A stretch of 31,672 bases of DNA. It comes from a virus. This document shows positions 3,299 to 20,447 of the stretch, one piece after another. The position numbers and the translations under genes were made by a program. Every line of letters begins with the position of its first letter. Positions within the stretch are counted from its first letter, which is position 1. The notes beneath the pieces were generated by a model that did not search any database, was not told the DNA's origin, and saw nothing but the letters and a program-made list of their open reading frames with translations. The DNA is taken from IMG/VR virus record IMGVR_UViG_3300035670_013259, positions 1-31,672 of that record; one strand, 5' to 3'.

Positions 3299-3339
3299 CC
3301 CGGCGCGGCGAAGGACCCGAGATCAGACGTCGCGCCGGG
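3299..3339 (+). terminator. GC-rich stem-loop between early blocks
   Basis: CCCGGCGCGGCG (3299-3310) can pair with CGTCGCGCCGGG (3328-3339) over 12 positions with one G-U pair and a 17-base loop. There is no T run, so it is not a classical intrinsic terminator. It may attenuate transcription or protect an mRNA end. It is followed by the sequence CACCAACAACA and a strong AGGAGG, as is the hairpin at 4573. Confidence 0.4.
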
Positions 3340-3365
3340 CGCACCAACAACACCCAGGAGGACAA

Positions 3366-3746
3366 GTGAGTAAGGAAACCGAGCCGGTGATCCGGCCGTT
3401 CGCGGACTGGCTCCGCGAGCAGTCGACCGGCAGCACCCACGAGGAACTCGGCGAGGCTCTGCACGACCTCATCGCCAAGGTCCAGGACACCGGCAAGAAG
3501 GGCTCCCTGACGCTGACCATCACGGTTGGCACCCTCAAGAACGACGCGGCCGTCCTGGTCGTCGAGGACCGGATCAAGCTCAAGCTTCCCGAACACGACC
3601 GCAAGGCGTCGCTGTTCTACCCGGACAAGCACGGCAACCTCACCCGCCGGGACCCGCGCCAGCTCGAGTTCGAGTCGCTGCGTGAGGTTCCGGCGCCGGA
3701 GGGCGTCGACCTTGAGACCGGCGAGATCCGCGAGGTTGCCGAATGA
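3366..3746 (+). CDS. Conserved phage protein upstream of DUF2303 gene
   Basis: A 126-residue acidic/basic mixed protein with a beta-rich centre (GSLTLTITVGTLKNDAAVLV). The GTG at 3366 is chosen for the AGGAGG at 3356-3361. Proteins of this type often precede DUF2303 genes in phages, and the pair overlaps by ATGA here. Its function is unknown; the position beside the recombination module suggests a role in DNA metabolism, which is only inference. Confidence 0.7.
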   Translation: MSKETEPVIRPFADWLREQSTGSTHEELGEALHDLIAKVQDTGKKGSLTLTITVGTLKNDAAVLVVEDRIKLKLPEHDRKASLFYPDKHGNLTRRDPRQLEFESLREVPAPEGVDLETGEIREVAE

Positions 3747-4561
3747 GCGGCGCAACGGAGGCATCGACGATCGGTGCGCTCGCGCTGGCATCGGCTGTCC
3801 CGTCACCGATCGAGCCCGGCAAGGTCTACTCGGTCATCGTTCCCGCGGGCGCCGAGCAGGTCGATATTGACCTGACGGGTTCGGAGTTCGTCGAGCGGCC
3901 CTCGCGTGCCCGCGGGAAGGTCGCTGTCCACTCGGCCGAGTCCCTGATCGCGTTCCTCGGCAAGCACGGCCTGCCCGAGTCCGAAGTCTGGGCCGACCGG
4001 ATCAATCACCGGATCGTGGCAGTCGTCAACGCCGGCCAAGGAAGCGACGGTGCGCCCGGCTGGGGCGACCACCTCGCGGTGTTCAACGTCCAACTCACGA
4101 CGGCCTGGCAGGCGTGGATCCGCCACGACGGGAAGTGGCTCGGGCAGACCGAGTTCGCTGAACACATCGAGGATCGGCTGCTCGACATCGTGAAGCCGAC
4201 CGGCGCCGAAATGCTGGAGATCGCGCAGTCGTTCCACGCATCGACCGGCGCCAAGTTCGAATCCTCGCACCGGCTGTCCAGCGGCGAGGGGCAACTCGAG
4301 TACCGCGAGACGATCGAGGCAACCGCCGGCAAGGCCGGCCGGCTCACGATCCCGTCGCACATCGAGCTCGGACTGAAGCCGTTCGAAGGCGCGCCGGCGT
4401 ACAAGGTGACCGCCCGATTCCGCTACCGCATCAACGGCGGCTCGCTGCGCCTCGCCTACGCGCTGGAGCGTCCGGACGAGGTCATCAACGAGGCGTTCGA
4501 CGCCGTCGTGTCCAAGGTCCAGGAGGCCGTCACGCAGCCGGTGTTCTTCGGAGCGCCCTGA
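3743..4561 (+). CDS. DUF2303 family (YfdQ-like) phage protein
   Basis: A 272-residue protein matching the DUF2303/YfdQ family in length and features: a central part with HRIVAVVNAG and WGDHLAVFNVQLTTAWQAW, a segment on targeting an epitope-like FAEHIED, and a C-terminal beta-rich part (APAYKVTARFRYRINGGSLRLAYAL). The family is common in temperate phages near recombination genes, but its function is not known. It is coupled to the upstream gene by ATGA and followed by a perfect 11-bp hairpin. Confidence 0.85.
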   Translation: MSGATEASTIGALALASAVPSPIEPGKVYSVIVPAGAEQVDIDLTGSEFVERPSRARGKVAVHSAESLIAFLGKHGLPESEVWADRINHRIVAVVNAGQGSDGAPGWGDHLAVFNVQLTTAWQAWIRHDGKWLGQTEFAEHIEDRLLDIVKPTGAEMLEIAQSFHASTGAKFESSHRLSSGEGQLEYRETIEATAGKAGRLTIPSHIELGLKPFEGAPAYKVTARFRYRINGGSLRLAYALERPDEVINEAFDAVVSKVQEAVTQPVFFGAP

Positions 4562-5386: not shown

Positions 5387-5532
5387 GCGCCGCGATCGTG
5401 GTGTTCGTCGTCCTCGTCCTGGCCGGGCTGGCGTGCGTCGCTGACGACACCCGGCGGCGGGCGGAGCGCTACACACTCACCCCGGCCGGCGTCGAGCTCG
5501 CTGACCGTCTCGCACGCGAGGTCGAGAAGTGA
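5383..5532 (+). CDS. Small membrane or exported protein
   Basis: A 49-residue protein with a hydrophobic N-terminal segment (AIVVFVVLVLAGLACV) followed by a charged helix ending LADRLAREVEK. It could be a single-span membrane peptide. The ATG overlaps the upstream stop (ATGA) and the stop overlaps the GTG of the nuclease gene (GTGA). The C-terminal helix resembles that of the 72-residue membrane protein at 4630 (RLAREVDE), so the two may be related. Confidence 0.6.
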   Translation: MSAAIVVFVVLVLAGLACVADDTRRRAERYTLTPAGVELADRLAREVEK

Positions 5533-6353
5533 GCCGCCGCGGGATCCCGGCCGGTGTCTACGACGACCTGGACGAGGCGAAGTATCACCGCGACGCACGG
5601 TCGCTGTCATCGACGGGCGTGAAACGGCTACTGGTCTCCCCGCTGCAGTTCAAATGGGAGCGAGAGAACCCGAAGGTCAAGGACCCGCTGGAGTTCGGCA
5701 ACGTCGTCCACGCTCTCGCGCTCGGCAAGGGCACCGCGTATGAGGTGCTCAAGTTCGAGAACCGGATGACCAACGCCTACAAGGACGCCGCCAAAGAGGC
5801 ACGCACGGCTGGCGTGATCCCGATCCTCCGCAAGGAGTACGCCAAAGCCGAAGCCATCGCCAAGCGGCTCCACGAGCACCCCGTCGCTGGGCCGCTCCTG
5901 CTCGGCGGGCGTTCGGAGGTTTCGGCGTTCGCGTGGGACAAGGTCACCCGAGTCATGCGACGCGCACGCGCCGACAAGCTCCACGACAACGGTCTCCTGG
6001 TCGACCTCAAGACCACCGCCGCGTCAGCCGAACCGACCCGCTGGGCGGTCGGCAAGACCGTCGAGGCCTACGACTACGACGTGTCCGCCGCCTACTACGA
6101 GGACACGTTCCGCCTCGCCGGCGTCGAGATCCGCGGCTTCGTCCACATCTTCGTGGAGAAAGACCCGCCACACCTCATCAGCGTCGTCGAAGTCGACCCC
6201 GACGACATCGACCGCACCCGCCCCGACATCGCACGAGCACTCGAAGTGTTCCGCGACTGCACCAAGTCCGGCATCTGGCCCGACTGGACCGACCACCACC
6301 AACCCATCACGCCCGTCCGGCTGCCCGGCTGGAAACACAAGGAGATCGCATGA
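5529..6353 (+). CDS. RecE-like PD-(D/E)XK exonuclease
   Basis: A 274-residue nuclease of the DUF3799/RecE-like group. The N-terminal YHRDARSLSSTGVKRLLVSP and EFGNVVHALALG motifs are typical. The active-site part includes RARADKL and LLVDLKTT, providing the Asp and the D-x-K of the PD-(D/E)XK fold. Such proteins digest one strand of a double-stranded end to make single strands for annealing. It directly precedes recT (ATGA), the usual phage pairing. The GTG start at 5529 is set by the GTGA overlap. Confidence 0.88.
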   Translation: MSRRGIPAGVYDDLDEAKYHRDARSLSSTGVKRLLVSPLQFKWERENPKVKDPLEFGNVVHALALGKGTAYEVLKFENRMTNAYKDAAKEARTAGVIPILRKEYAKAEAIAKRLHEHPVAGPLLLGGRSEVSAFAWDKVTRVMRRARADKLHDNGLLVDLKTTAASAEPTRWAVGKTVEAYDYDVSAAYYEDTFRLAGVEIRGFVHIFVEKDPPHLISVVEVDPDDIDRTRPDIARALEVFRDCTKSGIWPDWTDHHQPITPVRLPGWKHKEIA

Positions 6354-7132
6354 CCGAGAACACGCCCGCAACGCAGCAGCCATCCACAGCCGTCACGCTG
6401 CCCTCGGAGGACAAGCCCACCATCGCCGGCCTGATCAAGCAGCTTGAGCCGGAGATCGCGCGGGCCCTGCCCCGCGGCCTCGACGCGGACCGGGTCGCAC
6501 GCCTCGCGCTGACCGTGGTCCGACAGAACGCCCAACTCGCCGCCTGCACCCCGCAGTCATTCGCCGGCGCCCTGCTCACCGCCGCGGCGCTCGGCCTCGA
6601 GCCCGGCGTCAACGGTGAGGCGTACCTCGTGCCCTACAAGAACAAGCACACCCGCGGTGTCGAGTGCCAACTGATCATCGGCTACCAGGGCATGGCCAAG
6701 CTGTTCTTCCAGCACCCACTGGCCAGCGACCTCGACGCCCAAGCGGTCTACGAGAAGGACGAGTTCGACTTCGCCTACGGCACCGGCGCGTTCCTGACCC
6801 ACCGGCCGTCTGCTGCAGCCGACCGGGGCGACGTCATCTACTACTACGCGATCGCGCGCCTTTCGACCGGAGCGTCCAAGTTCGTCGTCCTCACACCCGA
6901 GGAGGTCAAGGAACTGCGCCGCGGAAAGGTCGGGCCGTCCGGCGATATCCCCGACCCGCAGCGGTGGATGGAGAAGAAGACGTGCGTCCGGCAGCTCGTG
7001 AAGCTGCTCCCACGCTCCGCGTCTCTGTCCGCGGCGCTCGCGGCCGACGAACAGCTCGGTTCCGGGCTGCGGCGCGCCCAGGTCGCGGAATCTCTGAACT
7101 CCAATCCGGTCACCGGGGAGATCGAAGGATGA
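6350..7132 (+). CDS. recT: RecT-family single-strand annealing protein
   Basis: A 260-residue protein with clear RecT family features: ALLTAAALGLEPGVNGEAYL, then a YKNK-type basic turn and ECQLIIGYQGMAKLFF, and later VLTPEEVKELR and WMEKKTCVRQLVKLLP. It anneals complementary single strands during phage recombination or replication. It forms an operon with the RecE-like nuclease through the ATGA overlap. Confidence 0.95.
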   Translation: MTENTPATQQPSTAVTLPSEDKPTIAGLIKQLEPEIARALPRGLDADRVARLALTVVRQNAQLAACTPQSFAGALLTAAALGLEPGVNGEAYLVPYKNKHTRGVECQLIIGYQGMAKLFFQHPLASDLDAQAVYEKDEFDFAYGTGAFLTHRPSAAADRGDVIYYYAIARLSTGASKFVVLTPEEVKELRRGKVGPSGDIPDPQRWMEKKTCVRQLVKLLPRSASLSAALAADEQLGSGLRRAQVAESLNSNPVTGEIEG

Positions 7133-7314: not shown

Positions 7315-7529
7315 TGAGCTGGGTAGGGACGTGCGCGTGCGGGAAGCGGATGTACCGCTCCCGCAAGGAAGCCAAACAGGTCGCTCGCAACGACTTCCCG
7401 AACGACCACCTATCGGCCTACAGGTGCCCCACATCAGGGACCTACCACATCGGCCACCTGCCGGCCGTCGTCCGTGAAGGGATCGCAGACCGGTCGAACG
7501 TCCGCAGCAACCGCAGGAGGGCCTGGTGA
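7314..7529 (+). CDS. Small conserved phage protein with CxC and YRCP motif
   Basis: A 71-residue basic protein: CACGKRMYRSRKEAKQVARN followed by SAYRCPTSGTYHIGHLP. The CxC pair, the later Cys and two His residues suggest a zinc ribbon. Similar small proteins with a YRCP...WHIGHLP ending occur in many actinobacterial genomes and phages; their role is unknown. The ATG at 7314 is set by the TGATG overlap. Confidence 0.72.
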   Translation: MSWVGTCACGKRMYRSRKEAKQVARNDFPNDHLSAYRCPTSGTYHIGHLPAVVREGIADRSNVRSNRRRAW

Positions 7530-9261: not shown

Positions 9262-9440
9262 TCGCAGAAACGTCGCACCGTGCGACAGGTGTGCGAATCG
9301 GGTCCGAATCCTCCCGACCCGACCCGACCCGACCCGACCCGACCCGATATCTAGTACTTGCGTTTTCTTGTCTGTTCAATCCATCAAGTCCAAATCGTTC
9401 AGTAAGTGATGGGCCGCGTCGATTGGCATTGACGTGTTGA
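9258..9440 (+). CDS. Doubtful 60-residue frame over the CCCGA repeat
   Basis: The GTG at 9258 overlaps the upstream stop (GTGA) and the frame runs to 9440. The product contains RPDPTRPDPTR from the pentamer repeat and has no recognisable domain. It could be the displaced tail of the preceding protein, a small gene or no gene at all. The context of tight overlaps argues slightly for it, the low-complexity content against. Confidence 0.25.
   Translation: MIAETSHRATGVRIGSESSRPDPTRPDPTRYLVLAFSCLFNPSSPNRSVSDGPRRLALTC
9313..9347. repeat. Seven tandem CCCGA pentamers
   Basis: Seven exact CCCGA units in a row (35 bp), followed by a relatively AT-rich stretch (about 9348-9410). Because the unit is 5 bp, unit loss or gain changes any reading frame across it. 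An iteron-like or unwinding role at an origin is possible because it follows the replication-module gene, but slippage of a coding repeat is also possible. Confidence 0.9.
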
Positions 9441-9826
9441 GCCGCAACGAAGCCGAACGTCTCGCACAGGCCATCTCGTGCCTACGGCCCGAGTGGCCAG
9501 TCGCATCCCTGCTGACCTTCATCGGAAAGCGGAAGAACCGACCACTGCTCGACCTGACCATCGAACTCGCCTGGGTCGCACAGCTCGAGGACACCAAATC
9601 GCCAGCACGCATCGACGAAGCCGGCCCGTGGAAAGCGGCAGTGCGTGGCGCCGAACCCGTGAACACGTCCGCTGTCCTCGGTTCCATCGACTTCGAAGCT
9701 GACTGCGCCGAATGTCTGAAACCACGCGAGCACCTGTGGCACGGCGGCACCGGAACCATCCACGACCACGAGTTCGCCGCCAGACGAGACAACCAGCCCA
9801 CACCACGACAGGAGACCCGCGCATGA
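9434..9826 (+). CDS. Conserved phage protein of the replication region
   Basis: A protein of about 130 residues: an N-terminal helix (SRNEAERLAQAISCL), PVASLLTFI, then DLTIELAWVAQLEDTKSPARI and a GPWKAAV motif. This ILDxGPW-like layout is seen in small actinophage proteins next to replication genes. The C-terminal part has CAECLKPREHLWHGG, a possible zinc site. The start is uncertain: GTG 9434 or TTG 9437, both without a clear ribosome binding site. Confidence 0.65.
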   Translation: MLSRNEAERLAQAISCLRPEWPVASLLTFIGKRKNRPLLDLTIELAWVAQLEDTKSPARIDEAGPWKAAVRGAEPVNTSAVLGSIDFEADCAECLKPREHLWHGGTGTIHDHEFAARRDNQPTPRQETRA

Positions 9827-9856
9827 GCCACACAACATCCGCGACGGAGCAGACCA

Positions 9857-10009
9857 ATGGCTGAACAACTCGCAGTAGCGAACACCGCGTATGACAAATG
9901 GCTGGAACGCATTGACGACAAGCGGCCAGACGCTCTCCTGACCTATATGGCGTTCCTTGGCGGGTTTCAGGCAGGGCACGACGCCGCGACGGAGGTTGAG
10001 GACCGATGA
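9857..10009 (+). CDS. Small hypothetical protein ending in ATEVEDR
   Basis: A 50-residue helical protein (MAEQLAVANTAYDKWLERID). Its last codons lie in a 35-bp sequence repeated at 10548-10582. Just upstream, a 13-residue frame (9823-9864) starts by ATGA overlap and contains the related ATE triplet followed by this gene's ATG; it may be a leader or a gene remnant. The stop overlaps the next start by ATGA. Confidence 0.55.
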   Translation: MAEQLAVANTAYDKWLERIDDKRPDALLTYMAFLGGFQAGHDAATEVEDR

Positions 10010-10011
10010 GC
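9977..10011. repeat. Junction repeat A, copy 1
   Basis: A 35-bp sequence, from CACGACGCCGCGACGGAGG to the start codon region ending GATGAGC, identical to 10548-10582. It encodes the last residues HDAATEVEDR of one gene, contains a GGAGG ribosome binding site, and includes the ATG of the next gene, so it is a movable translation start junction. Confidence 0.95.
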
Positions 10012-10440
10012 CAGAAGCCGCAAATCGCACGACAAACCGCCCGCAAACGGCTGGCATTACGACTGCTTTACGCCGACCGTCTCCGTCTGGCCCGAATCGT
10101 TGGCGCTGACACGTGGCAGCACGCCGTCATGGCTTTGACTGGCACCGAATGGGGAAGCGACTACGGCCCACCCTTCGCCAAGACTTTGCGTTACCAGTGG
10201 GCTGACACCGAACGGGTTTTCGCCAACGAAAACGACGGCATGGAGTTGTGGTTCGGCTACACCGACAAGTGGGAATGGCACATCGGCAACAACGAAGTGC
10301 GGATGTTGACCAAGTGGCTGATCTGGGATTGGTGGATCAAAGCCCGTTGGTTGGGTCTGCGTCGCCCGGTCTACTACTGGGCGCTCCACTCCGTTGTTTC
10401 CAAGTGGCGCAAGCAGGGCCCTGATCGGGAGGAAGCATGA
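10006..10440 (+). CDS. Hypothetical Trp/Arg-rich phage protein
   Basis: A 144-residue protein rich in Trp, Tyr and Arg: ARKRLALRLLYADRLRLARI, then WEWHIGNNEVRMLTKWLIWDWW and RPVYYWALHSVVSKWRKQ. The C-terminal part resembles a membrane-edge amphipathic helix pair rather than a true transmembrane segment. No family is recognised. It starts within junction repeat A and is followed by repeat B. Confidence 0.62.
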   Translation: MSQKPQIARQTARKRLALRLLYADRLRLARIVGADTWQHAVMALTGTEWGSDYGPPFAKTLRYQWADTERVFANENDGMELWFGYTDKWEWHIGNNEVRMLTKWLIWDWWIKARWLGLRRPVYYWALHSVVSKWRKQGPDREEA

Positions 10441-10479
10441 CCGCCAACATCCCCGACAGCGCGGTCGAGGCAGCAGCGG
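10437..10479. repeat. Junction repeat B, copy 1
   Basis: A 43-bp sequence encoding MTANIPDSAVEAAA plus one base, identical to 10870-10912. It forms the start of two otherwise different short genes. The peptide resembles the N terminus (IPDxAVEAAA) of a widespread family of small phage proteins. Confidence 0.95.
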
Positions 10480-10580
10480 GAGCGGTAGCCGAAGCCCTAT
10501 ACGGAACCGAGTTGGGCGGGTTGAAGAGTTGGGCACACGCCGACTGCCACGACGCCGCGACGGAGGTTGAGGACCGATGA
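10437..10580 (+). CDS. Short protein of the IPD-AVEAAA type, flanked by repeats B and A
   Basis: A 47-residue protein beginning MTANIPDSAVEAAAGAVAEA and ending HDAATEVEDR. The first 14 residues are repeated at 10870 and the last 10 are repeated from 10009. It looks like a shortened or recombined member of a small actinophage family whose longer members begin IPDEAVEAAA. Function unknown. Overlaps both neighbours by ATGA. Confidence 0.55.
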   Translation: MTANIPDSAVEAAAGAVAEALYGTELGGLKSWAHADCHDAATEVEDR

Positions 10581-10582
10581 GC
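10548..10582. repeat. Junction repeat A, copy 2
   Basis: Identical to 9977-10011 over 35 bp. It carries the end of the upstream small gene, GGAGG and the ATG of the DUF3850 gene. Confidence 0.95.
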
Positions 10583-10873
10583 ACGCACATCCTGAAAACG
10601 AATCAGGTCTACTGGGACGCTGTCCGAGAAGGCCGTAAGACATTTGAGGCACGCCGGAACGACCGTGGGTTCCAGACCGGCGACCGACTCGTACTGCTAC
10701 CTGAGGGCTGGTGCGAATGCGGCAAGCGTGACTGCTCGGCCAACTACGGCAAACCGGACCCGATGACGCGCCTCGTCACCTACGTGTTCTCCGGTGACCC
10801 GAGTCTGCGCGACAACGGCGGAATCGTCCCCGGCTATGTCGTACTCGGGCTGAAAGACGAGGCAGGCGCATGA
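10577..10873 (+). CDS. DUF3850 (ASCH superfamily) protein
   Basis: A 98-residue protein matching DUF3850: HILKTNQVYWDAVREGRKTF, EARRNDRGFQTGDRLVL, and a C-terminal VPGYVVLGL strand. These are ASCH-like small proteins thought to bind RNA or a nucleotide, common in phages, with no settled function. An insert with CECGKRDC may bind a metal. Its start lies in junction repeat A; GGAGG is 10 bases upstream of the ATG. Confidence 0.85.
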   Translation: MSTHILKTNQVYWDAVREGRKTFEARRNDRGFQTGDRLVLLPEGWCECGKRDCSANYGKPDPMTRLVTYVFSGDPSLRDNGGIVPGYVVLGLKDEAGA

Positions 10874-10912
10874 CCGCCAACATCCCCGACAGCGCGGTCG
10901 AGGCAGCAGCGG
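10870..10912. repeat. Junction repeat B, copy 2
   Basis: Identical to 10437-10479 over 43 bp, again starting at an ATG that overlaps the stop of the gene before it. Confidence 0.95.
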
Positions 10913-10962
10913 ACGCATGGAAATCCGCGCTCCGCATCGTCAGGGGTGACAGTGATGCGTGA
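10870..10962 (+). CDS. 30-residue remnant of the IPD-AVEAAA family
   Basis: A short frame that begins with the same 14 residues as the protein at 10437 and then diverges (DAWKSALRIVRGDSDA). Its length and its shared beginning suggest a truncated duplicate. It may still be translated, since its start overlaps the DUF3850 stop. Confidence 0.4.
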   Translation: MTANIPDSAVEAAADAWKSALRIVRGDSDA

Positions 10963-11038
10963 TCTATTCATGGCTGTCATGGCCGCCCTGTGGATCACGG
11001 GCATGTGGTGGATGTTGGAAACGGGGTTGCAGCGATGA
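10955..11038 (+). CDS. 27-residue membrane peptide
   Basis: MRDLFMAVMAALWITGMWWM followed by a short polar end (LETGLQR). It is a single hydrophobic span with a purine-rich AGGGG about 7-11 bases upstream. It overlaps the stop of the 30-residue frame and, by ATGA, the start of the next gene, which supports translation. Such small phage peptides may act in the membrane, but no role is shown. Confidence 0.5.
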   Translation: MRDLFMAVMAALWITGMWWMLETGLQR

Positions 11039-11631
11039 GCCGCGCCGACATTCTCGCCAAGGTCACCGACGTGCTGCGGGACTACGGGTGGATGCAAGAC
11101 GACCACATTGAGGCACTAGCCGCCGTCATCGCGGACGCACTCGCGCCCCACATGGCAGCGGCGTGGGACGAAGGGTTCGAGCAAGAACGGAAACGGAGCC
11201 TTCTCATGACGCCAGAGCGTCTGACGGAGATTCAGGGATGGTTCACCGAATGGGACGGGCCGGTCGCACGCAGTCTGGTGGCCGAACTCGTCACAGCCCT
11301 TCATGAAACTCAGCGGCGATTGAGGACAACGACGGTTGAGCGTGATGCAGCCGTGAAGTTTGAGCGCCTTGCTCAAGCCGACGCGCTACGGCAGGCAGCA
11401 GATGAGTTCGGCTCTCTAGTTCGAGATGCTGACGACGAAAACAACCCAGAGAACCACGTCCGCCTTTGGCTCCGTGACCGCGCTGACAAGTACGACCGGA
11501 CGGAGGCCGACATGACCATCCAAGAGTTCCAAGCCGGATGCGCCCACAACTTCGTGAATCTGTCCTCGTTCGGTGACCCGTATCGCAGATGCCAGAACTG
11601 CGGACTCGTTGAAGACCGGACGGAGGCGTGA
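11035..11631 (+). CDS. Coiled-coil phage protein with C-terminal zinc-ribbon segment
   Basis: A 198-residue protein. The N-terminal part is helical (ILAKVTDVLRDYGWMQDDHI), the middle (MTPERLTEIQGWFTEW; AELVTALHETQRRLRTTTVE) resembles the ERLAEI...LLxELxRLR family of small actinophage proteins, and the last 40 residues hold CAHNF...RRCQNCG, a zinc-ribbon-like part. An internal ATG at 11512 with GGAGG 6 bases before it could start a separate 39-residue product. The sequence GACCGGACGGAGGC occurs before that ATG and again at the gene's 3' end, so the gene may be a fusion of two small units. Confidence 0.62.
   Translation: MSRADILAKVTDVLRDYGWMQDDHIEALAAVIADALAPHMAAAWDEGFEQERKRSLLMTPERLTEIQGWFTEWDGPVARSLVAELVTALHETQRRLRTTTVERDAAVKFERLAQADALRQAADEFGSLVRDADDENNPENHVRLWLRDRADKYDRTEADMTIQEFQAGCAHNFVNLSSFGDPYRRCQNCGLVEDRTEA
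11494..11507. repeat. Short junction repeat with ribosome binding site, copy 1
   Basis: GACCGGACGGAGGC occurs here and at 11614-11627. Both copies carry GGAGG shortly before a possible start codon and encode the tail DRTEA. They resemble the ACGGAGG of junction repeat A, so the same kind of end-and-start junction may be involved. Confidence 0.8.
11614..11627. repeat. Short junction repeat with ribosome binding site, copy 2
   Basis: Second copy of the 14-bp sequence, next to the stop of the 198-residue gene and the GTG of the following gene. Confidence 0.8.
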
Positions 11632-12098
11632 CCGTGGACGAAACCAGACTGGCCGAGATAGAGCGTTCGTGGGAGGACTGGAAGCCGCTCCACCAAAAGG
11701 CGCTACATGACGGATTCATGGAGGCGAAGAGGGACATCCCCGAACTGATCGCCGCGCTTCGGGAAGCGTGGGCCGACCATCAGGCCGACGTTGATCTTCT
11801 GAACGCACAGTTTGAGCGAGTGGTCGCAGAGCGCATCGAGGCCCGGGACGAGCGTGACCGGCTGGCCGAGGAAAGCGACCTCTACAAGTTGGAACTCGAT
11901 GCCGCCGATGCTGTGATCGAACGCGTGAAGGCGCTGGCCGACGAGTGGGCAGATGACTACCCCGGCGCCTGTGCTGCCTGCAACCGAACACCTGACGAAT
12001 GGTGGCGGGAACTCCGCGCCGCCCTGGCCGACCCCGAACCCGGTGAGCGGCGGGACATCCACTGCTGCGAAAGCTGCCGACGTCAGGAGCGCGAATGA
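11628..12098 (+). CDS. Coiled-coil protein with C-terminal Cys residues
   Basis: A 156-residue acidic protein. TRLAEIERSWEDWKPLHQKA and DIPELIAALREAW fit the common actinophage layout of a TPERLAEI start followed by a DVPxLLAE helix and a long coiled coil (LNAQFERVVAERIEARDERD). The C-terminal part has CAACN and CCESCRR, perhaps a zinc site. The GTG at 11628 overlaps the upstream stop (GTGA); a GTG at 11634 is possible. It shares its helical layout with the gene before it. Function unknown. Confidence 0.65.
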   Translation: MTVDETRLAEIERSWEDWKPLHQKALHDGFMEAKRDIPELIAALREAWADHQADVDLLNAQFERVVAERIEARDERDRLAEESDLYKLELDAADAVIERVKALADEWADDYPGACAACNRTPDEWWRELRAALADPEPGERRDIHCCESCRRQERE

Positions 12099-19031: not shown

Positions 19032-20447
19032 GTGGCGTTCGGGAACATCTCGACGCTTTACCTGCCAATCGCAGCGAACGCAGGTTCGTCTCAGTGGGGC
19101 ACAGACGTCCGAAAGCTGCTCGACGCCGCTGACGGAACAAGCGATAGCACTACTACAACGAACCACGGCACGGGCGGGCAGGTCACCCGGACGGCAGACC
19201 CGTACTCAGCGTCGTCAACTGACGGCACCGAGGCGAACTTTGGGTGGGCGGTCACACCGTCAGACATGAACTCCGTTGCGGGTGCACGCCGGTTCTACCC
19301 TGCCGGTAACCATGTCGCGACCGTGCGGCTCGGCCACAACGGAGCGCTTGCCGCCAACGCCACGTTGACCATGTTCGCCTACCGTGTCGGAAACGCCGCT
19401 GGCGGGCGGGCACGGACCCTTCTCGGTTCCGCGACGAGTGCGTCCATCCAACTTCCAGCCGCGTCGGGTCAGGCCACATTCACGGTCACCCTGGCCCTAG
19501 GCGAAGTGATCTTTGAGGTCGACGAAACGATCCAATACTCGTTCGAGATCGCCGCTCCGGGCGTCGCGATCACGGGCAAGATTGTCACGCTCTTTACCGG
19601 AACAACGTCAAGCGTTGTGGGCCGGGTGGACACCCCGACACTCAAGGTCTTGGCCGACACGACCGGCACAAGCAACGACAGCGTAGGAACGGCTAGCGGT
19701 GTCGTAGGCAAGGTTCTGAACACGACCGGCACAAGCAACGACAGCGTAGGAACGGCTAGCGGAGCCCTCGGTGCACAGGCCGCGCTTGCTGGCGCGGCAT
19801 CGGGCAGCGGTGCGGCTTCCGGCGTTCTCAACGCTACGGCTGGGCTATCGGGAACGGCTGGCGGTGTGGCCGACGCCTTGGCTGTTGTCGGCGCATCTGC
19901 GGGTCTCGTTGGCTCGGCCAACGGTGCGGGCAGTTCCTCCGGCGTTCTGGGTGCGACTGCGGGGCTAGTCGGGCTCTCCGGCGGCGGCTCTGAGGCTTCG
20001 GGATCCTTGTCCGCATTCGCGGCCATGTCCGGTTCTTCAGCCGGGACGTGCATCGTCCTTGGCCAGCCAAGCTCGCTATCGGGAACGACCGGCTCAGCCT
20101 CGGGAACCGGAGCAGGGCTCGGCGTCATGGGTGCCGTCGTGGGCACAGTCGGGACAGTGAACATTGGCGGTGACGCGCCCTCTGACTACTCCCCGAACGA
20201 TGAAGCAAGGTCGATCACGGGCGAGGTCCTGCACCACGAGACCGGCGCACCGATCGAAGCTGCGACCGTCCGACTCATCCGGGACAGTGACGGCCTGCTC
20301 TGCGCCACCGGAAGCACAGGACCGGGGGGCTTGTACACCTTCCTGCGCGGGTCAACGGACCCGAACACTTACCACGTCACAGCTGACTACGACGACGCCG
20401 GGACACAAGTCCACGGGATCAGCGACCGAGGTCTCGTGCCGTCATGA
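19032..20447 (+). CDS. Repeat-rich structural protein (possible head fibre or decoration protein)
   Basis: A 471-residue protein. Residues 1-205 look like a beta-sandwich domain (ISTLYLPIAANAGSSQWG; NHVATVRLGHNGALAANATL). Residues about 209-375 are low-complexity Gly/Ala/Ser repeats of about 21 residues, with periodic TASG, AASG and GLSG turns. The C-terminal 80 residues are a carboxypeptidase-regulatory/Ig-like unit (SITGEVLHHETGAPIEAATV). Such architecture suggests a flexible surface fibre exposing a terminal domain. It sits between portal and protease, an unusual place. The GTG at 19032 lies 6 bases after the upstream stop. Confidence 0.7.
   Translation: MAFGNISTLYLPIAANAGSSQWGTDVRKLLDAADGTSDSTTTTNHGTGGQVTRTADPYSASSTDGTEANFGWAVTPSDMNSVAGARRFYPAGNHVATVRLGHNGALAANATLTMFAYRVGNAAGGRARTLLGSATSASIQLPAASGQATFTVTLALGEVIFEVDETIQYSFEIAAPGVAITGKIVTLFTGTTSSVVGRVDTPTLKVLADTTGTSNDSVGTASGVVGKVLNTTGTSNDSVGTASGALGAQAALAGAASGSGAASGVLNATAGLSGTAGGVADALAVVGASAGLVGSANGAGSSSGVLGATAGLVGLSGGGSEASGSLSAFAAMSGSSAGTCIVLGQPSSLSGTTGSASGTGAGLGVMGAVVGTVGTVNIGGDAPSDYSPNDEARSITGEVLHHETGAPIEAATVRLIRDSDGLLCATGSTGPGGLYTFLRGSTDPNTYHVTADYDDAGTQVHGISDRGLVPS
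19657..19762. repeat. 43-bp direct repeat within the repeat-rich gene (period 63 bp)
   Basis: The sequence at 19657-19699 recurs exactly at 19720-19762. It encodes TTGTSNDSVGTASG, so the period is 21 residues. The exact identity of the DNA points to a recent duplication in a gene region able to change length. Confidence 0.95.

Follow-up and report, generated by a model that had tools for sequence, protein, structure and literature searches.

T4-type mobile regulatory cassettes (PeSL) are repeated elements between genes that carry a promoter and a stem-loop, and they have been proposed to mediate the shuffling of modules. It has long been asked how phages can take up single genes while keeping their operons intact, and most mosaic borders are too worn to separate homologous from illegitimate exchange. 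In lambdoid phages, short conserved boundary sequences have been proposed as sites of homologous module exchange (Susskind and Botstein 1978; Clark et al. 2001, cited in PMC3029335). In the mycobacteriophages of cluster I, genes 67 and 68 of Island3 have the same 60 bp at their ends, a sequence present once in Brujita (gene 66), which the authors read as recombination between sequences of about 50 bp and describe as the first such event in mycobacteriophages (PMC3029335). When the sequences of Island3 67 and 68 were re-read here, the gene ends were found to share about 60 bp with a few differences, and Brujita to hold one recombinant copy. In LRRHood, 29-bp direct repeats flank a 1.35-kb insertion (PMC3029335). 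The start-associated sequences of cluster K are 13 bp long, occur in 11–19 copies, are mostly intergenic and contain a Shine-Dalgarno sequence; their authors suggest that they are possible recombination targets (PMC3203893).

Here we describe a phage in which two unrelated small genes each stand between the same two perfect repeats. The array is most likely the trace of genes added at shared joints. Gene addition of this type has already been described for a few phages, but both joints are rarely seen intact. What is new in this case is that the repeats are perfect at both ends of the exchanged gene, and it is a clean example rather than a new kind.

The phage and its source record

The window, i.e. 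the whole stretch of DNA that was analysed, corresponds to a single IMG/VR virus record in full (31,672 bp). The phage is unclassified, and its host is probably an actinobacterium, judging from terminase and Pfam matches. The large terminase is backed by tblastn matches to annotated phage terminases; the best of these, to Rhodococcus phage Sleepyhead, has 47% identity over most of the protein, and the search for near relatives through this protein (TerL) gave none that is close. From reading the open reading frames (orfs), we take others to be integrase, portal, major capsid and tape-measure genes, a ParB-like/methyltransferase gene and small early genes. Genes for RecT and a nuclease are present (Table 1). 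Profiles of defence systems gave a single, weak match (LmuB, E 0.0065), on the gene at 11634. At 9313–9347, downstream of a gene end, the pentamer CCCGA stands in tandem in about seven units.

Table 1. Features of the window that are discussed in the text
Feature	Position	Strand	Remarks
Phage-type integrase-like orf	1–1389	minus	the sole one noticed; recognised by reading
PDDEXK-like nuclease (DUF3799)	5529–6353	+	probable RecT partner; Pfam PF12684, 2e-23
RecT single-strand annealing protein	6350–7132	+	Pfam PF03837, 2e-37
CCGCGACGGAG, 11 bp of A	9839–9849	+	inside a 13-codon mini-orf just ahead of the up1 start
up1, small orf, 50 aa	9857–10009	+	ends in repeat A (...AFLGGFQAGHDAATEVEDR)
Repeat A, copy 1	9977–10011	+	upstream orf end HDAATEVEDR, GGAGG, overlap CGATGA, first codons of orf144
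orf144 (P), 144 aa	10006–10440	+	first cassette gene
Repeat B, copy 1	10435–10479	+	overlap GC ATGA closing orf144, then the first 14 codons (MTANIPDSAVEAAA) of the 47-aa orf
X, 47-aa orf	10437–10580	+	B + 68 bp + A
Repeat A, copy 2	10548–10582	+	likewise, where the 47-aa orf ends and the DUF3850 gene starts
DUF3850/ASCH-fold gene (Q)	10577–10873	+	second cassette gene; PF12961, 1.9e-15; phrog_986 (annotated RNA-binding protein)
Repeat B, copy 2	10868–10912	+	DUF3850 gene end and first 14 codons of the 30-aa orf
30-aa orf	10870–10962	+	starts with B copy 2; overlaps a 27-aa putative membrane peptide orf
Junction repeat C, copy 1 (GACCGGACGGAGGC)	11494–11507	+	gene end (..DRTEA..)
Junction repeat C, copy 2 (GACCGGACGGAGGC)	11614–11627	+	next gene's end (..DRTEA, stop)

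Two unrelated genes between identical joints

A preliminary description of this DNA had reported a repeat A of 35 bp at 9977 and 10548, holding a gene end, GGAGG and the next ATG, in the order A-gene-B-A-gene-B with a second repeat, B. All of this agrees with our results. The copies of A are identical at 35/35 positions with sharp edges, and consist of ten codons from the very end of the upstream gene, a Shine-Dalgarno sequence and the next ATGAGC. Both upstream orfs read HDAATEVEDR and the stop in one and the same frame, GGAGG lies inside the repeat, and the repeat continues past the overlapping ATG to the second codon of the downstream gene. For B the description gave 43 bp at 10437 and 10870, which is right when counted from the ATG; the true start lies 2 bp earlier, and the copies are identical at 45/45 positions, again with sharp edges. 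B opens at the stop/start overlap GCATGA and spans 14 codons of the following orf, both in the 47-aa and in the 30-aa orf; the description calls it the start of a short gene. The full order is A-gene-B-x-A-gene-B, where x is a stretch of 68 bp between B and the second A that finishes the 47-aa orf begun by B and closed by A.

Repeats of this length are far beyond chance. In 30 third-order Markov sequences of the length of the window the longest repeat was 15–18 bp, and B is the longest and A the third-longest exact direct repeat of the window. The other long one is a 43-bp direct repeat in a putative tail gene (19657–19762; copies at 19657 and 19720, with starts 63 bp apart), which encodes a DTTGTSNDSVGTASG-like repeat. 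Outside this phage, a comparison set of 0.69 Mb of fetched related or comparable phage and prophage loci, some of them overlapping, held only one exact repeat of at least 35 bp with copies at least 100 bp apart. This is a perfect 77-bp direct repeat in locus L050 (G709:C122:12000-29902; 5716–5792 and 7425–7501), between genes in a region that precedes a TerL homologue. Read along the coding strand, it contains a GACCGCTTCGGCGGTC hairpin and a T run, then GAGGAAAGGAAG just ahead of two unrelated orf starts, and it looks like a cassette of terminator and ribosome-binding site that has been duplicated at gene borders.

What lies between the joints is unrelated. Comparisons of P with Q, of x with up1, and of x with the second tail of the array all gave scores like those of shuffled sequences. 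P and Q differ from codon 3 through the penultimate codon, which means that the difference between them is one of whole genes. The locus thus has short identical sequences at gene borders between otherwise unrelated neighbours, which is how boundary sequences are recognised. The two A...B units follow each other in direct order, as would be expected if one A-gene-B-x unit had been duplicated in tandem and one copy of the gene had later been replaced or lost by illegitimate recombination, leaving joints that are passive leftovers and were never exchange sites. For most phage mosaics, too, the favoured origin is illegitimate exchange near gene ends (PMC3029335). Still, we find such a history unlikely: no leftover of P was detected in Q or of Q in P, the x flank is unlike the sequence that follows B copy 2, and the replaced stretch begins and ends within a few bases of the two joints, so that two lucky breakpoints would be required.

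Each of the two repeats has two copies only in 31.7 kb, and the whole window holds no further copy of A even when up to 3 mismatches are allowed. The copies are identical at silent positions too. Folding of A and B as RNA gave z-scores of −0.33 to +1.54, i.e. no structure or stem-loop beyond that of shuffled sequences. These results bear on whether the small orfs could be paralogues with ends under selection, or the repeats regulatory elements for translation initiation such as the start-associated sequences of cluster K, whose phages carry 11–19 copies of a 13-bp repeat. Both A and B are indeed located at translation starts, and A has a Shine-Dalgarno sequence. An explanation of this kind is nevertheless improbable given the low copy number, the identity at silent positions and the lack of RNA structure; many other starts in the window are without A or B, and the 8-mer GACGGAGG is not enriched (see below). 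By the rule of three, the 80 identical bases of A and B together limit the divergence between copies to less than about 3.7% per site; the event that gave A-P-B-x-A-Q-B should therefore be recent.

Perfect, short repeats in an IMG/VR record that probably comes from a short-read assembly also raise the question of a chimera. If strain variants A-P-B and A-Q-B were present in the same metagenome, two alleles of one slot would yield exactly such a graph, and the assembler may have strung them together at the 35- and 45-bp repeats. Reads and the final k-mer of current assemblers normally bridge repeats of 35–45 bp, and we regard a chimera as very improbable. Even in that case the alleles A-P-B and A-Q-B would both be real, and this would be the exchange itself.

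Proposed origin of the array

Our preferred reading, to which we give a probability of roughly 0.6, is that the array is the scar of a recent module addition in a small-gene operon, in which both occupants of one A-B slot were put in tandem. The unrelated genes P and Q would have come to fill the same slot, with joint A upstream (the coded end of a small gene, a ribosome-binding site and a start codon) and joint B downstream (a stop/start overlap and the opening of the next small gene). Either two variants of the phage recombined or an unequal exchange took place, and this would then have set both versions in tandem as A-P-B-x-A-Q-B; this order of events we infer from the arrangement. Since the joints carry a Shine-Dalgarno sequence or a stop with an overlapping start, a gene swapped between A and B would be translated immediately and coupled to its neighbours.

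A and B themselves would have been the recombination sites. At 35 and 45 bp they are longer than the minimal pairing lengths given for Red-beta (23–27) and RecA (31–34) (PMC3945230). As the phage encodes RecT and a nuclease, help from RecT in the exchange is plausible, and RecA or illegitimate recombination instead of RecT could leave an equal trace. A stronger form of the model, where A and B are a standing joint pair used repeatedly in the phage lineage and RecT docks any small ATGAGC...GCA-TGA gene together with its translation signals, seems to us unlikely. As both borders are still perfect and carry translation signals, the homologous-joint model is directly testable at this locus.

Weaker related sites at nearby gene joints

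The preliminary description also mentioned ACGGAG sites near 9840, 11500 and 11620 as falling at gene joints. Sites are indeed found there, at 9839, 11494 and 11614, but they are weaker. The two copies of GACCGGACGGAGGC form a 14-bp pair at two consecutive gene ends, read in one frame, while 0.06 such pairs within 150 bp are expected per genome under the null. This pair is distinct from the 11-bp CCGCGACGGAG match to A but has the same core. The 8-mer GACGGAGG occurs 5 times in the window against 3.0 expected and was dropped as a motif in its own right. Much of the likeness between the ACGGAG-type sites is a Shine-Dalgarno sequence spelled by Thr-Glu codons near gene ends.

Two further orfs in this part of the genome are worth describing. 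The 13-codon mini-orf at 9823–9864, MSHTTSATEQTNG, opens with ATGAGCCA as orf144 does and contains 11 bp of repeat A; it could be a collapsed, empty slot. The orf at 11035–11514 consists of two stretches, each resembling a small gene in its own right; an internal ATGACGCCAGAG start follows ..EQERKRSLL, and the orf is a possible in-frame gene fusion.

Relatives of the array and its genes

No relative that shares A, B or the array region, or that has a single-gene or swapped version of it, was found in any collection searched, from which very near records may have been withheld. The exact cores of A and B had no match in IMG/VR, degenerate B had none in IMG/VR and the GTDB genomes, and the array region had none by blastn against phages and plasmids. 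The early regions that were fetched from TerL relatives are without P, Q, up1 and X; tblastn with X and up1 gave nothing credible, and no P was found in 396 genomes taken from the G001 phylum.

P itself is a real family, with homologues in Microbacterium phage SM23 and in five IMG/VR contigs at about 37–53% over the matched parts. Around the P homologue SM23 is related to phage FuzzBuster, and a small upstream orf (ending AFMGGWLARRHRE..) is conserved in both; this ending recalls the AFLGGFQAGHDA.. of the present phage. The similarity ends at the stop/start joint of the small orf, after which the body of the P homologue in SM23 is swapped for an unrelated one in FuzzBuster. It resumes within the 3' part of the gene, placing the right-hand joint inside the gene and not at its end, which counts against the proposed origin of the array. 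A distant phage, G398, shares P, the DUF3799 nuclease and one more early gene with this phage. In its genome one end-of-gene joint (TTCCGGCTGACACRACAGGAG...ATG) recurs in three diverged copies, at the ends of P and of two genes just downstream. TTCCGGCTGACACRACAGGAG closes both P and a gene two places further along, a version shorter by 3 bases closes the next gene, and 40 kb contain no further copies of this joint. Repeated or exchanged end-and-start joints near P therefore occur in other phages.

In L035, the P homologue is immediately followed by a DUF3850 gene, in which (3335–4090) the DUF3850 domain is fused to extra N- and C-terminal parts. This adjacency warns that something else may link P and Q, which may be old neighbours rather than rivals for one slot. 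The idea of the preliminary description, that accessory genes were brought together through short homologous joints with translation signals in them, stands as the best reading, with indirect support from SM23/FuzzBuster, G398 and Island3. To judge from L035, P may not be wholly independent of Q.

Comparison with known systems

Together with G398, SM23/FuzzBuster and Island3, the array suggests that end-and-start joints are a recurrent exchange point in the small-gene operons of these and related phages. As in Island3 67/68, the 3' end of an extra small gene is a repeat of the preceding gene's 3' end, with overlapping stop and start in the repeat, and RecT and a nuclease are encoded here as exonuclease and RecT are in Island3 and Brujita. 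Island3 has a single repeat, imperfect and about 60 bp long, which lies only at the gene end, whereas here perfect repeats lie at both an end joint (A) and a start joint (B), with two different genes between them. LRRHood similarly has extra genes bounded by a short direct repeat at a gene end, a repeat that is single in its relatives; however, it has one repeat family and four genes, and no A-gene-B unit that occurs twice. Like the lambdoid boundary sequences, A and B are short sequences at gene borders, but the lambdoid boundaries were seen by comparing phages and these are repeated within one genome.

The start-associated sequences of cluster K are also located at translation starts, and A shares with them a Shine-Dalgarno sequence, but their hallmark is many copies of GGGATAGGAGCCC 3–7 bp before starts. 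A and B are without that 13-mer, are longer, have two copies each and are mostly coding. Unlike the PeSL of T4-type phages, they are coding rather than intergenic and have no stem-loop beyond that of shuffled sequences. The hallmark of integrons is an array of palindromic attC sites with an integron integrase beside it. On inspection neither A nor B is a palindromic attC site; a single integrase-like orf, of the phage type, was noticed when the orfs of this genome were read.
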